DNA of 11,466 nucleotides, from contig JASEGY010000072.1 in the NCBI GenBank assembly GCA_030019105.1, positions 1-11,466 of the forward strand, in the 5' to 3' direction. Of this stretch, positions 1,184 through 11,191 are shown one piece after another. The notes under the pieces were generated by a model. The model saw nothing but the letters and a program-made list of their open reading frames with translations, was not told the DNA's origin and ran no database searches. The DNA comes from a bacterium. Lineage in GTDB: Bacteria; UBA9089; JASEGY01. Position 1 is the stretch's first letter; each line of letters begins with the position of its first letter. The position numbers were made by a program, and so were the translations under genes.

Positions 1184-2776
1184 CTACTGAATCTCGGTAA
1201 TCGGCGCTTCCTGCATCCAGAGTTCGTGAATAAAGTCATAGAGCCTGTTACTTACCGAGACCTTGTACGGTGTCGGATTTAGCGTCCGCAGGTGGTCATT
1301 TCTCATTAAACCAAGCTGGTCAAGGGTATAGCGCCGCAACTCTTTCACCGAAGGAAGCGGAACATTAATCCGGCCGTCCCAGACACATTGATGTAAGGAA
1401 ATGACTTCAGTTGGGATGACGTATACCCTTTTGGTTTCCTCAAAGGGGTGCCGGCAAAGAATCCGCTCACCAGGCCTGGGGGGGGCTTCGCCAACCGGAA
1501 TCATCAGGTCCAACAAAGCCGTTCCCTCTGAACCAATCAGGCGATACGCTTCCTTTCTACCCGGCAGAGTTACCTTGTCCACGTCTTGAGATAATTTAAT
1601 GCGCTGTTTGCCGTTGACCTCAACCAGTTTGTAAACACAACCCAGGGCAGGCTGTGTCTGGCAAGTGACCAGATGAGTGCCGATGCCGAAGACATCAATT
1701 TCATGTCCCTGTTGTTTCAAAGAGATCAAGGTGGCCTCGTTAATATCGTTGCTGGCGACAATCAACAAATTTGGGAAACCATCAACAGGAAATCGTTCTC
1801 TAACTTGCTGAAACATCTTTTTCGCTTTTTTGGACAAATAGGCCAGATCACCTGAATCCAGTCTAATCCCAATAGGCTTATAACCAATGGCATGGAGGGC
1901 CATGACCACAGAGAGAAAATTCGGCACCCCGGAGTTGAGCGTATCGTAGGTATCCACCAGGGCCAGAAATCCTTCGGGGAAGGCCTGAGCATAAGCGATA
2001 AAAGCCGCCAGCTCTCCTTCGTTCGTATGGTTGAAGCCAAGCTGTTTACGGAATTTGAGGGCCAGGCTAACGAAATCGTGTTTCTTCCCATCCGGATCAA
2101 TAATGGAATTAGTCTTCAGGTCATCAAGTCCGGAAAAAGAAGAGACATAGGAATGGGCATGTGTTCCCTTGACCGTAAGCCCGAAAAGTTTACCGGCCAG
2201 GACATTGCTTGTCCCGTTGAAGCCTCCGATGACGCTGTATCTGGAAGCGGATACAGCCCCATCCGGCCCCTGGGCTCTGCGAGCGCCGAATTCCAGGAGG
2301 ACCTTGCTCTCATCTCCCACGGCCAGCCGGAAACAGGCGGCGTTAGTCGCCACCAGGCCGGCATAATTGACCAGATTAAGTATGGTCGTCTCAAGTAGTT
2401 GGGCAATGGCCAGAGGCCCTTCCACCCGGATCAGAGGGATGCGTGGGAATACCACCGAACCTTCTCTGACAGCGTAGATCTTTATTTTTGAGCAATCCGC
2501 CCTTTTCAGCCAGTCAAAAAATTCCGCATCACATCCGGGCATTAAAGACTTGATATATTCAATATCTTCGTCTGCAAAACGGTAAGCGCTCACAAACCGC
2601 AGAACCTCTTCCAGGCCGGCAAATATAGTGAATGATTTGCCAAACGGATTTTGTCTGAAAAAGACATCAAAAACAGCCGGCTCTTCATGCTTGCCGTCCT
2701 TCCAATAGGCATAGGCCATCGTTAATTGATAAAAATCAGTTAACATCGGGCTTACGAAATTGTTTGCCGGTTTCAT
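1184..2776 (-). CDS. pncB: Nicotinate phosphoribosyltransferase (NAPRT-type)
   Basis: The product joins nicotinate to PRPP, with ATP hydrolysis, to give nicotinate mononucleotide in cytoplasmic NAD salvage. The 530-aa length fits the long NAPRT form found in animals and many bacteria (about 540 aa) better than the roughly 400-aa enterobacterial PncB. The N-terminal motif is DFYQLTMAYAYW (residues 14-25). The core has LLEFGARRAQGPDG (160-173), SNVLAGK (190-196) and GTHAHSYVSSFSG (204-216); His208 aligns with the histidine phosphorylated in this family, and the arginines at 166-167 with PRPP-binding residues. The start is set by AAGGAGG (complement of 2783-2789), seven bases from the ATG. It is the last gene of a tight run, only 18 bases after the CopG-like gene, so it is probably co-transcribed with it unless it has a promoter inside copG. 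The gene appears complete. Confidence 0.95.
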   Translation of the reverse strand: MKPANNFVSPMLTDFYQLTMAYAYWKDGKHEEPAVFDVFFRQNPFGKSFTIFAGLEEVLRFVSAYRFADEDIEYIKSLMPGCDAEFFDWLKRADCSKIKIYAVREGSVVFPRIPLIRVEGPLAIAQLLETTILNLVNYAGLVATNAACFRLAVGDESKVLLEFGARRAQGPDGAVSASRYSVIGGFNGTSNVLAGKLFGLTVKGTHAHSYVSSFSGLDDLKTNSIIDPDGKKHDFVSLALKFRKQLGFNHTNEGELAAFIAYAQAFPEGFLALVDTYDTLNSGVPNFLSVVMALHAIGYKPIGIRLDSGDLAYLSKKAKKMFQQVRERFPVDGFPNLLIVASNDINEATLISLKQQGHEIDVFGIGTHLVTCQTQPALGCVYKLVEVNGKQRIKLSQDVDKVTLPGRKEAYRLIGSEGTALLDLMIPVGEAPPRPGERILCRHPFEETKRVYVIPTEVISLHQCVWDGRINVPLPSVKELRRYTLDQLGLMRNDHLRTLNPTPYKVSVSNRLYDFIHELWMQEAPITEIQ

Positions 2777-2794: not shown

Positions 2795-3100
2795 TCAGGC
2801 TGCCGTCTGTCTTGATAAGTCACCGCTCGTCCTATGGGCCAGTTTTTCCTTTAATATGCCGCTGGCAAGATTCTTCACAGGCGTATTTACTTTTTTGGCG
2901 TATGCGTTTAATGCGAAGAAACTCTCCCTGTCAATCTCAATTTCAAAGTGCCGCCTTTTAATATCAATTGTCATGTCTACTGGTTCCAGATACTCTTCAT
3001 AATCACTTGTACTGTGAGTATCCCAGAACTCTCCTGCCTCCTCCTCGGAGGCAAAAGTATCAGGTAACGGGTCGATGCTTTTACTACTTTTGCTTTTCAT
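2795..3100 (-). CDS. CopG-type (ribbon-helix-helix) antitoxin-like protein
   Basis: This 101-aa protein has the two-part layout of the CopG_antitoxin/BrnA-like group. An acidic N-terminal segment reads FASEEEAGEFWDTHSTSDY (about residues 17-35). A ribbon-helix-helix domain follows, with a strand around DIKRRHFEIEIDRE and helices around SFFALNAYAKKV and PVKNLASGILKEKL. Such proteins usually bind their own promoter and neutralise a partner toxin. No BrnT- or RelE-like partner is visible next to it; instead it follows an unrecognised gene by two bases and precedes pncB by 18. The ribosome site is weak (GGGA, 7 bases before the ATG), so translational coupling to the upstream stop is likely. It may control the operon promoter at 4282-4310, which is inference. 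Confidence 0.75.
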   Translation of the reverse strand: MKSKSSKSIDPLPDTFASEEEAGEFWDTHSTSDYEEYLEPVDMTIDIKRRHFEIEIDRESFFALNAYAKKVNTPVKNLASGILKEKLAHRTSGDLSRQTAA

Positions 3101-3102
3101 AT

Positions 3103-3540
3103 TTATGTCCCAATCTTAATTTCTACCGTGAGATCATTGATAATATTCTGTCGATACAAAAGTCTTCTGCTTTTACTCCAATTATTACTTCTGAGTTTTC
3201 TGTTTTTGGGAGGTTCAAACTCGATGGATTCATCAGCTTTCAATTGTCTGACTTCAACGTGGGCATAATTGGAATCTAAAGGATCGTGACAGGGAGTAGC
3301 CATTCTTTCAAATCGTGAAGTTTCTACCGTGAAAGAATAGCATCCATCCGTAGTATTTATATTTTCCCGAAGTCTGATATCCGCAGGTTTTGAAAATCTG
3401 CTCCAATTACAGGAGAAATCAGGGAAACGAATAGAATGCACCCCTATTTCGGTAGTATCAGGAATCAGGTCTGATTGGTTGAAACTCCTGTAGAGTTTCT
3501 CGTTAGGGTAAAAATCGGAGGGAGAATACTTGTAAGTCAT
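3103..3540 (-). CDS. Conserved-looking hypothetical protein, second gene of the cassette
   Basis: I do not recognise a named family with certainty for this 145-aa product. It opens with YSPSDFYPNEKLYRSF. The middle is DLIPDTTEIGVHSIRFPDFSCNWSRFS in two stretches, pairing a turn-rich F-P-D-x-S-x-N motif with SRFSKP. Near the end is a His/Asn/Glu-containing block HDPLDSNYAHVEVR (about residues 84-97). The C-terminus is basic (KNRKLRSNNWSKSRRLLYR), then a strand-like LTVEIKIG. No signal peptide or membrane segment is visible. It starts nine bases after the stop of the upstream gene, has no obvious ribosome site and ends two bases before copG, so it looks translationally coupled. Pairing with the upstream gene and an antitoxin suggests an accessory cassette, but the activity is unknown. 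Confidence 0.7.
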   Translation of the reverse strand: MTYKYSPSDFYPNEKLYRSFNQSDLIPDTTEIGVHSIRFPDFSCNWSRFSKPADIRLRENINTTDGCYSFTVETSRFERMATPCHDPLDSNYAHVEVRQLKADESIEFEPPKNRKLRSNNWSKSRRLLYRQNIINDLTVEIKIGT

Positions 3541-3549
3541 TCAAAGATA

Positions 3550-3954
3550 TTATCCGTAAAGAAGGTTTACTGTCCGTGTAAAAGAAAAATCCTTTATGTC
3601 TTCACTTACTATAACGTTCTTCCTGGCATCATCATTCACAAGTGCCGCAGTTTCCGCAGTATTGTAAGTTTCCACAATCAAAGAACGATTATTGTTATAG
3701 CTTTTGTAAAAGATAGATATGCCTTCTTCTTTGTTGGGCACTATCTTGATAGGTATAAGGTCGTATTCTTTGTATAGGTAAAAACAGACCTCTTTTGCGA
3801 TCTCTTTTGAAGCAATGTTTGGCTCTGCAATACCTTCTTCCCTCCAACTACGGGGGAAAGGAATGTTGAAAATCAAATTCTCTACGTGACTATAAAAGGG
3901 GTCTCTCTTTTTTACAGGGATGTTATATTTGGTATTTGCAGCCAACTGACTCAT
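3550..3954 (-). CDS. Hypothetical protein, first gene of the cassette
   Basis: The product is 134 aa from the ATG at 3954 and has no family I can name. It contains an FNIPFPRSWREEG segment, a helix EIAKEVCFYLYKEYDL, a strand region PIKIVPNKEEGISIFYKSY, and NRSLIVETYNTAETAALV near the end. It is probably a small soluble alpha/beta protein. I chose the ATG at 3954 because GGGGA (complement of 3963-3967) is seven bases upstream. The longer open start at 4002 would read MAETMDIA from the terminal repeat of the inserted element and has no ribosome site. Before that insertion, the consensus promoter at 4282-4310 would have lain 30 bases from this start. It now has a leader of about 320 bases containing an inverted repeat, so expression may be reduced or altered. 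Confidence 0.7.
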   Translation of the reverse strand: MSQLAANTKYNIPVKKRDPFYSHVENLIFNIPFPRSWREEGIAEPNIASKEIAKEVCFYLYKEYDLIPIKIVPNKEEGISIFYKSYNNNRSLIVETYNTAETAALVNDDARKNVIVSEDIKDFSFTRTVNLLYG

Positions 3955-3978
3955 TGTTATTTCCCCACAGTAGTTATA

Positions 3979-4273
3979 GGCGATGTCCATCGTTTCGGCC
4001 ATTTGAAAATAGGAAGTAAGAAATGGGAAATAGGAAGTAAATCAAGATACTTCCCATTTCCTGATTTCCGGGATGATTCACCTTACTGTGAAAGCTTGCG
4101 GCTAAAAATTATCATTAACTTTCCGGAGTTAATCCTTTAGGATTTCATTAGTTATGAAAGGCTAAAGCCTAAACTCCAGAAAGAACGCAAGGTTTCACAA
4201 GAAAATGGACGATTTTTGAACCGTCCCTGATTTCCCATTTTCGACTTGAGTGGCCGAAACGATGATCAATGCC
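3979..4273. mobile_element. 295-bp non-autonomous insertion element (MITE-like), 24-bp repeat as terminal inverted repeats
   Basis: The ends are inverted copies of the 24-bp repeat (3979-4002 and 4250-4273), both starting GGC from outside and sharing CATCGTTTCGGCCA. TA flanks it on each side (3977-3978 and 4274-4275), as expected of a TA target duplication of the IS630/Tc1-mariner type. There is no coding region. The left internal part is a purine-rich repeat (AAATGGGAAATAGGAAGT and relatives). A 166-bp central part is bounded by 9-bp direct copies of CTGATTTCC (4061-4069 and 4227-4235). It lies exactly between a consensus promoter and the ribosome binding site of the gene at 3954. Confidence 0.65.
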
Positions 4274-4281
4274 TACATTTC

Positions 4282-4310
4282 ATTATAGACTGTGATATTT
4301 GATTTGTCAA
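4282..4310 (-). promoter_or_regulatory. Perfect sigma-70 promoter for the cassette-pncB operon
   Basis: On the minus strand TTGACA (4310-4305), a 17-base spacer and TATAAT (4287-4282) match the consensus at all 12 positions. It points toward the gene starting at 3954. The 295-bp element begins seven bases after the -10 box (just beyond the flanking TA), so transcription would start near or inside the element's right end. Confidence 0.7.
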
Positions 4311-4330
4311 ATCTTTTTTGCCTTCTACAC

Positions 4331-4452
4331 GGCCTTGTCCATCGTTTGGGCCAGTCAAGTCGAAAATGAGAAATGGGAAGTATCTTGATTTACTTCCTAT
4401 TTCCCATTTCTTACTTCCCATTTTTAAAATGACCGAAACGATGGACAAAGCC
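4331..4452. mobile_element. 122-bp short relative of the 295-bp element, inverted
   Basis: The ends are inverted copies of the 24-bp repeat (4331-4354 and 4429-4452). Read on the other strand, it is collinear with the 295-bp element: the purine-rich block 4370-4424 matches 4006-4060 with one difference, and the segment TCATTTTCGACTTGA matches its right part. The central 166-170 bp are missing. It lies four bases beyond the stop of the permease gene at 4457. No TA duplication is evident. Confidence 0.6.
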
Positions 4453-4456
4453 CAAA

Positions 4457-5647
4457 TTACTCATACCTGAGCGCCTCTACCGGATTAAGCCTGGCGGCCA
4501 GATGAGCCGGATAGACGCCAAAGAATATCCCCACTAAGTAGGAGAAGGTAAAGCCTAAAAGAATCGCCCCACCTGAAAGAGAAATGGCCAGATCCATCAC
4601 CTTCGCGATCAAAAGAATCACTCCGGCCGCCGCTCCAATACCAATGATTCCGCCAAAAAGGCAAAGCATCAGGCTTTCGGTCAAGAACTGATAAAGGATA
4701 TTCTGTCTGGTGGCTCCGACCGCTTTTCTTATCCCCACCTCACGGGTTCGCTCCCGGACAGTTACCAACATAATATTCATAATCCCAATCCCACCCACCA
4801 CAAGGGAAATAGCCGCAATGCTGCTAATCACAATAGAGATGATATCCGTCACCTTGTCTACAATCTGGATGAACTCATCCATTGTGGTTACCTCCCAGCC
4901 CTCTCTGTCAGAAAAGAGCTTGAGGAGATGCCTCTTTATCCTCTCTTTAAGAATAGGAACGGACACGCCGTCCTTTGCCCTGATCAAGACCTCATAAATT
5001 TCATCTGCCCCTAACAGCCGCTGAAGAGCAGAGGAAGGTAGAATCAGGGCATTATTAAGGTCCCACGGGCCTAACTTTAATTTATAGGTCATTATCCCAA
5101 TTACCCGGAAGTATGTCCCTTCTACTTCTACATCTTGATGGCCTAATGCCTTTGAGCCGCCAAAGAGAGAATTAAAAAGGTCCCGGCCAATTATGCCAAC
5201 CTTTTGTGAGCTTTTGACCTCATGTTCCGTAAATATCCGTCCTCTGACAATATCCAGCTTCCACATCTCAAACCAATTGGCCGGAACCTCTAAAACCGGA
5301 ATCAATTTGTGCTCGCCTCTTACTTTCATGGTGGTAGAGAGAAAATATTCAGGGGCCACATCTTCAATTCCCGGAATATCCCTCTTCATTGCCCGGACTT
5401 GATCCTCGGTGAGATAGTCCAGCTTATCCTGCCGGGTTTCCATCATGATCTGGTTGCTGTGAGCCACGATCAGGTTGGTTCCTCCTCTGCCTAACTCGCT
5501 AAGGATCAACTCCTTTCCGCCCTGTCCTATGGTAATTATGGCCACAATGGAAAAAACTCCGATCATTACCCCCAGAACAGTCAGGAAGGCCCGTAGTTTA
5601 TATTGCCTTAAGCTTTTTAATGAGAATAGGATATATTCTATTAACAT
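4457..5647 (-). CDS. MacB-like ABC transporter permease (FtsX/MacB_PCD family)
   Basis: This inner-membrane permease of a tripartite exporter has 396 aa from the ATG at 5647. An N-terminal membrane helix (about residues 20-40, after LKSLRQYKLR) is followed by a large periplasmic domain including a MacB_PCD-like core. The C-terminal FtsX domain has three hydrophobic segments, with the typical GGIGIMNIMLVTVRERTREV and GIRKAVGATR motifs and the ending NPVEALRYE. An in-frame ATG 31 codons upstream adds only a Phe/Pro-rich stretch translated from an intergenic repeat. I prefer 5647 because the MLIEYILFSL start matches the family and a GA-rich AGAAGAGAG lies just ahead. The ATPase is a separate gene upstream. 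The substrate is unknown; in this family it ranges over macrolides, peptides and lipoproteins. Confidence 0.92.
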   Translation of the reverse strand: MLIEYILFSLKSLRQYKLRAFLTVLGVMIGVFSIVAIITIGQGGKELILSELGRGGTNLIVAHSNQIMMETRQDKLDYLTEDQVRAMKRDIPGIEDVAPEYFLSTTMKVRGEHKLIPVLEVPANWFEMWKLDIVRGRIFTEHEVKSSQKVGIIGRDLFNSLFGGSKALGHQDVEVEGTYFRVIGIMTYKLKLGPWDLNNALILPSSALQRLLGADEIYEVLIRAKDGVSVPILKERIKRHLLKLFSDREGWEVTTMDEFIQIVDKVTDIISIVISSIAAISLVVGGIGIMNIMLVTVRERTREVGIRKAVGATRQNILYQFLTESLMLCLFGGIIGIGAAAGVILLIAKVMDLAISLSGGAILLGFTFSYLVGIFFGVYPAHLAARLNPVEALRYE

Positions 5648-5679
5648 CTCTCTTCTTTGTAACTGTTCAGGGTGTAATG

Positions 5680-11167: not shown

Positions 11168-11191
11168 GTGGCCGAAACGATGAACAAGGCC
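11168..11191 (+). repeat. 24-bp dispersed repeat, copy 7 (single)
   Basis: GGCC, then GAAACGATGAACAA, then GGCC: a full-match copy with no partner nearby. It marks the 5' edge of the recognisable Fic remnant and lies 27 bases beyond the stop of the XRE-type gene. Confidence 0.75.

Follow-up and report, generated by a model that had tools for sequence, protein, structure and literature searches.

Correia elements are accompanied by a TA target duplication. In Neisseria gonorrhoeae, one such element lies just 3' of the mtrCDE promoter, where RNase III cuts its ends and where it carries an IHF site (PMC10969869, PMC2649163). The short intergenic repeats BOX, RUP, and SPRITE of Streptococcus pneumoniae are nested in one another, and ERIC reaches 711 copies in Photorhabdus (PMC10969869). 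In this study, we analyzed a stretch of bacterial DNA of 11,466 nucleotides (hereafter, the window), in which a perfect promoter and several repeats lie between a macB-like gene and a gene cassette. An initial annotation had read a 295-bp repeat between the promoter and the cassette as a single insertion. Copies in the own genome and the duplication flanking the inner element indicate two nested MITEs, M1-A and M2, instead of one, and the annotation had overlooked a second, inverted M1 copy across the promoter (M1-B, 4331-4452). The features of the locus are listed in Table 1.

Table 1. Features of the locus between and around the macB-like gene and pncB
Feature	Position in the window	Strand	Evidence or remark
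pncB, nicotinate phosphoribosyltransferase	1184-2776	-	Pfam NAPRTase domains; old neighbor of macB
copG, CopG-type antitoxin gene	2795-3100	-	PF12441 CopG_antitoxin, 33 bits (cut-off, 28)
hyp2	3103-3540	-	No Pfam family; NCBIfam and PADLOC matches at chance level only
hyp1	3550-3954	-	No Pfam, NCBIfam, or PADLOC match; frame open from upstream ATG 4002 in M1 end
GGGGA ribosome site of hyp1	3962-3966	-	5' of the ATG at 3954
M1-A, outer MITE carrying M2	3979-4273		Ends 3979-4001 and 4251-4273; inverted repeat, family copies
M2 target duplication, left copy (TGATTTCC)	4062-4069		Flank comparison
M2, 158-bp MITE, ends GGGATG/CGTCCC	4070-4227		30 distinct full-length copies
M2 target duplication, right copy (TGATTTCC)	4228-4235		Flank comparison
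Putative promoter relic of a RAYT-like transposase element	4274-4330	-	-35, 4310-4305; -10, 4287-4282; consensus score and G001 homology
M1-B, second M1 copy, inverted relative to M1-A	4331-4452		Ends 4 bp from the macB stop codon
macB-like ABC transporter permease	4457-5650	-	MacB_PCD and FtsX

Results

As initially annotated, a run of four genes begins at position 3954 behind a GGGGA ribosome site; it comprises two ORFs without a Pfam family (hyp1 and hyp2), a CopG_antitoxin gene (PF12441), and a nicotinate phosphoribosyltransferase gene. The alternative start that had been proposed for hyp1 (MAETMDIA) does exist as an in-frame ATG at 4002, but no ribosome site is visible upstream of it, and for this reason we rejected it as the main start. 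ATG codons in an outward open frame (ATGGCCGAAACGATG) are found in the M1 end (window 3979-4002 and others), so that M1 copies in the neighborhood of genes can supply further starts upstream in frame, of which that at 4002 is an example. With respect to toxin-antitoxin pairing, a CopG_antitoxin is present, and searches of Pfam, NCBIfam, and PADLOC gave no credible family match for hyp1 or hyp2.

Among 61 genomes, hyp1 was detected in its own genome only (none in the 60 others), and the protein search with hyp1 returned hyp1 itself alone among 31 candidates. Relatives of hyp2 were found at 12 loci in named genomes from distant phyla; 11 of the 12 carry a hyp1 relative just upstream, and copG is absent from all of these loci. 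Since hyp1 and hyp2 are paired in distant phyla and hyp1 occurs in no other of the 61 genomes, the pair was probably acquired. The uncharacterized hyp1-hyp2 pair (L062 to L072) is common to Nitrospirae, Methylobacter, Spirochaetes, and other taxa. In L062, hyp1 directly adjoins a further gene, of 202 aa; in L072, there is no such contact. The scanned sequence upstream of these 11 hyp1 relatives held no promoter of 12/12; the best score was 11/12 (L065).

The perfect minus-strand promoter of sigma-70 type that had been noted upstream of hyp1 (TTGACA-17-TATAAT at 4310-4282) is real and scored 12/12, and the promoter scan revealed no other minus-strand site of at least 9/12 between 3800 and 4600. 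In the 4.34-Mb own genome (G000), we counted 39 exact instances of this pattern versus one of the control read backwards, which makes chance an unlikely source of this promoter. The 57-bp spacer between M1-A and M1-B, in which the promoter lies, matched contig C29 of the genus-mate G001 when stretches of both genus genomes were searched by BLAST (86% over 50 bp; E value, 1.4e-9). The matching segment is itself a repeat, found by a separate repeat search at seven places in G001 (C29, C81, C30, C201, C62, C135, and C26), although the same repeat search overlooked the window's own spacer; the seven copies are 94 to 100% identical to the C29 segment over its first 126 to 128 bases. Compared over 52 positions, the spacer showed 46 identities with five of the copies and 45 and 44 with the other two, and local scores ranged from 54 to 64 against a shuffled maximum of 31. 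The -10 box reads TATAAT in six copies and CATAAT in one, an ATG stands six bases past the box in 7 of 7, and an mRNA from these promoters would be almost leaderless. The copies lie on contigs other than that with the macB-pncB junction. In G000, no further spacer copy was found outside the window, an absence that is not firm, as the same search overlooked five alignable copies in G001.

We translated five of the G001 copies; two (C135 and C26) read MPRKPRLDAPGALHHVIVRGIE or nearly so, and three are frameshifted. This peptide resembles the start of a RAYT-like Y1 transposase. The 64-aa piece from C135 gave a weak match to NCBIfam REP_Tyr_transpos (E value, 0.00097, below the cut-off) and no Pfam match. 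In the own genome, a complete relative (C175) scored 50.7 bits with Y1_Tnp (cut-off, 23) and 68.2 with REP_Tyr_transpos (cut-off, 80); it is the one Y1_Tnp gene over the cut-off in G000, and none was found in G001, where several element copies stop at contig ends. The region upstream of the C175 gene scored 20 against the spacer, inside the shuffled range, so that the RAYT link of the spacer comes from the genus-mate. At the level of nucleotide sequence, the promoter segment of G000 proved homologous to the RAYT-type promoters of G001. It holds the promoter only, without a transposase frame, and looks like what is left of a transposase gene, not like a start signal that belonged to the operon from the outset.

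Miniature RAYT elements of 233 bp (L207 and L209, on C81 and C30 of G001) are bounded by inverted ends (GGGGGACATGGGGGACGGTGG) and contain a perfect promoter. Besides, an orphan copy on contig C194 of G001 (L219:270-298) aligned to the spacer with 44 identities, 7 mismatches, and 1 gap, and it also holds a perfect promoter. It has no transposase and lies 82 nt 5' of the ATG of an aldehyde-dehydrogenase-family gene (L219:381-1643), which we take to be proA-like; this gene gave no tblastn match in the examined part of G000. In the own genome, an M1 end also lies 38 to 83 nt downstream of three other perfect promoters (L091, L090, and L102, on C129, C92, and C206), and the order of promoter, M1, and gene is therefore not unique to the window. 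When 33 of the 39 exact promoters were taken into account, M1 lay within 100 nt downstream of 4 and within about 210 nt upstream of 4, with the window in both counts, a proximity counted without a shuffle control and not clearly above chance.

The inverted ends of the 295-bp element, reported to be 24 bp, are present at 3977-4001 and 4251-4275 (25 nt, 84% complementary), and TA stands on both sides, as had been stated. When the own genome was searched with the 295-bp sequence, at least 94 matches were listed; 40 of 651 candidates were scored, and the copy numbers are lower bounds. Among the matches listed, one outside the window covered the full length (C159, 88%), 27 fell within query positions 79 to 262, and at several places query positions 1 to 91 and about 249 to 295 stood side by side, with the middle absent. 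M2 is nested in M1-A, flanked in the window by a perfect 8-bp repeat, and M1-A without M2 and one repeat copy would measure 129 bp, the same length as family member L056.

At the loci examined, 30 distinct full-length copies of M2 were compared, namely, that of the window, 28 with 98 to 99.4% identity to it, and one with 87%. The 8-bp flank repeat is exact in 24 of the 30, the window copy included, matches at 7 of 8 positions in one, and matches at fewer in five. M2 accordingly shows the inverted ends, multiple copies, and target duplication of a MITE. As judged by flank motifs, 6 of the 30 copies lie inside M1-like interiors (L001, L002, L003, L004, L026, and L027) and 5 inside GGTTTCTT/AAGAAACC GGTTTCT hairpins (L014, L015, L021, L025, and L026); M2 may prefer hairpins as sites, these being counts without a control.

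Allowing at most 1 mismatch, we counted 515 occurrences of the 14-base core of the M1 end in the own genome and 108 in G001, and none of 19 other relatives had more than one; thus far, this search places M1 in two genomes of one genus. Paired M1 elements at 116 own-genome loci represent 49 distinct elements, of which 41 measure 73 to 170 bp and 8 measure 286 to 612 bp. Their 8-bp flanks are identical in 18, match at 7 of 8 positions in 7, and fall below this in 24; in the control, in which left and right flanks were taken from different M1 elements, none of 2352 pairs reached 7 of 8. The target duplication of the M1 family is 8 bp and not TA, and TA/TA flanks were found at 1 of the 49 elements, the window's copy, with 0.19 expected. 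Short, bounded by terminal inverted repeats, devoid of a transposase gene, and present in many copies, M1 is a MITE. We rejected its assignment to the Correia elements for want of a TA rule, and Rfam gave no family in the window or in L177:1-300.

Both M1 copies beside the promoter depart from the family rule: the flanks of M1-A share 4 of 8 bases and those of M1-B share 2 of 8, and neither copy has an 8-bp duplication. The arms at 4002-4060 and 4370-4428 are 97% complementary over 59 nt, and further arms of 44 nt are 86% complementary. An inversion between M1-A and M1-B was considered as the cause of the missing duplications and was rejected, as the flanks, compared by hand, do not swap-match. 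Since 24 of the 49 paired copies are without a duplication at 7 of 8 positions, a missing duplication alone is no proof of recombination, and the duplications may have decayed. Elsewhere in the window, two M1 ends of the same orientation lie about 120 bp apart at 1029-1171 and a single end lies at 11169-11191, all without their usual inverted partners.

Searches for two families of possible partner transposases of M1, ISL3 and IS1595, found neither in G000 or G001, and no transposase of M1 or M2 was found among the candidates examined. A 2010-bp M1-bounded candidate in G001 was dropped as the autonomous partner, because it carries genes that are presumably rapZ- and hprK-like and is not an IS. 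Among the other M1 copies, 6 of 49 had both flanks placed in the examined G001 DNA; three of these were aligned, and divergence of the intergenic DNA prevented the recognition of an empty site at base level in any of them.

At the locus itself, pncB of G001 (protein 89% identical) adjoins macB (protein 92% identical), and homology with the window extends 10 bp past the start of pncB on one side and as far as the stop codon of macB on the other. This junction has no cassette, no M1, and no promoter: the 168 bp between macB and pncB showed no similarity to the window insert above that of shuffles and no promoter of at least 9/12. No site with the window promoter joined directly to hyp1 was found in the 61 genomes searched for hyp1.

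Folding agreed with the earlier claim of a long, structured leader. The element transcript is predicted to form one closed domain of -119.4 kcal/mol, whereas 200 shuffles gave a mean of -66.3 (standard deviation, 4.8), corresponding to a z score of -11.1. From the SD to the ATG of hyp1, the mean unpaired probability was 0.57 both with and without the element, and GGGGA was mostly paired in both cases. Predicted pairing at the ribosome site is thus unchanged, and the element need not alter translation; it could attenuate transcription or be cut by RNase III. Six terminator-like sites were found in 3800-4600, compared with 0.9 expected. Two of them are on the minus strand inside M1-A and have weak T tails, which makes read-through of the element uncertain.

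Discussion

We consider it probable (about 0.7) that the DNA separating macB from hyp1 is a mosaic comprising M1-A with its nested M2, a 57-bp RAYT promoter relic, and the inverted M1-B, with the following history and use. The relic would have come to lie beside the acquired hyp1-hyp2 (copG) cassette through recombination or deletion between dispersed M1 copies and not through the plain insertion of an element behind a gene's promoter. Such an event would explain why both M1 copies are without a duplication and have unlike flanks and why the RAYT fragment is cut on both sides. The relic might now serve as the promoter of the cassette. Transcripts would then begin close to 4275, some two bases ahead of M1-A, and cross the nested MITEs, which would fold into a closed hairpin domain and leave the predicted pairing of the hyp1 ribosome site unaffected. 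This domain may be cut by RNase III, as the Correia element is in the mtrCDE leader. In short, mobile-DNA scrap seems to have supplied the cassette with its control region.

It is conceivable, although rather unlikely, that the same pieces are inert, that is, that the relic promoter fires and the nested hairpins stop or degrade its transcript, with the cassette silent or read from macB. The excess of terminator-like sites, including the minus-strand pair in M1-A, and the very stable fold would fit such an outcome, but a strong T run is present at neither minus-strand site and the cassette ORFs are open.

A bolder proposal, to which we give little weight, is that RAYT-type promoters are, in this genus, portable promoters captured by host genes (the presumed proA-like gene in G001 and the hyp1 cassette here) and that recombination between the inverted M1 arms could flip the promoter, thereby switching the cassette on or off. 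Among open-licence papers, we found no report in which a host gene had captured the promoter of a RAYT gene.

The model of the initial annotation, in which one element entered a TA that separated hyp1 from a promoter belonging to the cassette and can be removed again by excision, is very unlikely. The promoter is perfect, TA is found on both sides, and the arithmetic was correct in that deletion of the element and one TA leaves a leader of 30 bases from the -10 box to the ATG. However, two nested elements are involved, the family rule is 8 bp, with TA/TA at 1 of 49 elements, the promoter has counterparts among transposase promoters at other sites in the genus, and the hyp1 relatives show no 12/12 promoter in the scanned upstream stretches, where L065 came closest. 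Because of the nesting and the missing 8-bp duplication at M1-A, the proposed excision restores no known ancestor. An assembly error, by which M1 or M2 copies joined unlike pieces, is least credible of all, since a random misjoin in this draft of 1053 contigs, even with short, multi-copy M1 and M2, would hardly reproduce the adjacency of the outer neighbors pncB and macB that is also seen in G001.

If the locus is a mosaic with a relic promoter, as we prefer, it is an example of an acquired cassette whose control region is seemingly made of mobile-element pieces, including a transposase promoter that has outlived its gene. What merits further attention is the captured RAYT promoter, of which the genus shows two cases. 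Should the promoter work, the locus would be a clean system for the cost or protection conferred by nested MITE hairpins in a leader. It also carries a caution: an insertion should not be reconstructed from two flanking bases, and the length of the duplication must come from the family (here 8, not 2).

Compared with described systems, the structure is a mosaic mostly of known kinds, made up in part of MITE families newly named here, M1 and M2. Its arrangement resembles that of the Correia element at mtrCDE in that a MITE lies just 3' of a promoter in an operon leader and gives a stable hairpin RNA (PMC10969869). It differs in that M1 duplicates 8 bp and in that M1-A carries a second MITE. The nesting recalls the repeats of S. 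pneumoniae, although the families are others and both M1 and M2 show 8-bp duplications at the level of the family. Like ERIC and other high-copy MITEs, M1 is short and intergenic and reaches several hundred copies in a single genome, whereas, unlike ERIC, it keeps common ends around varying interiors (73 to 170 bp in 41 of 49 elements). As for RAYT genes, the spacer corresponds to the promoter segment of such an element in G001, of which the window keeps the promoter and not the transposase frame.
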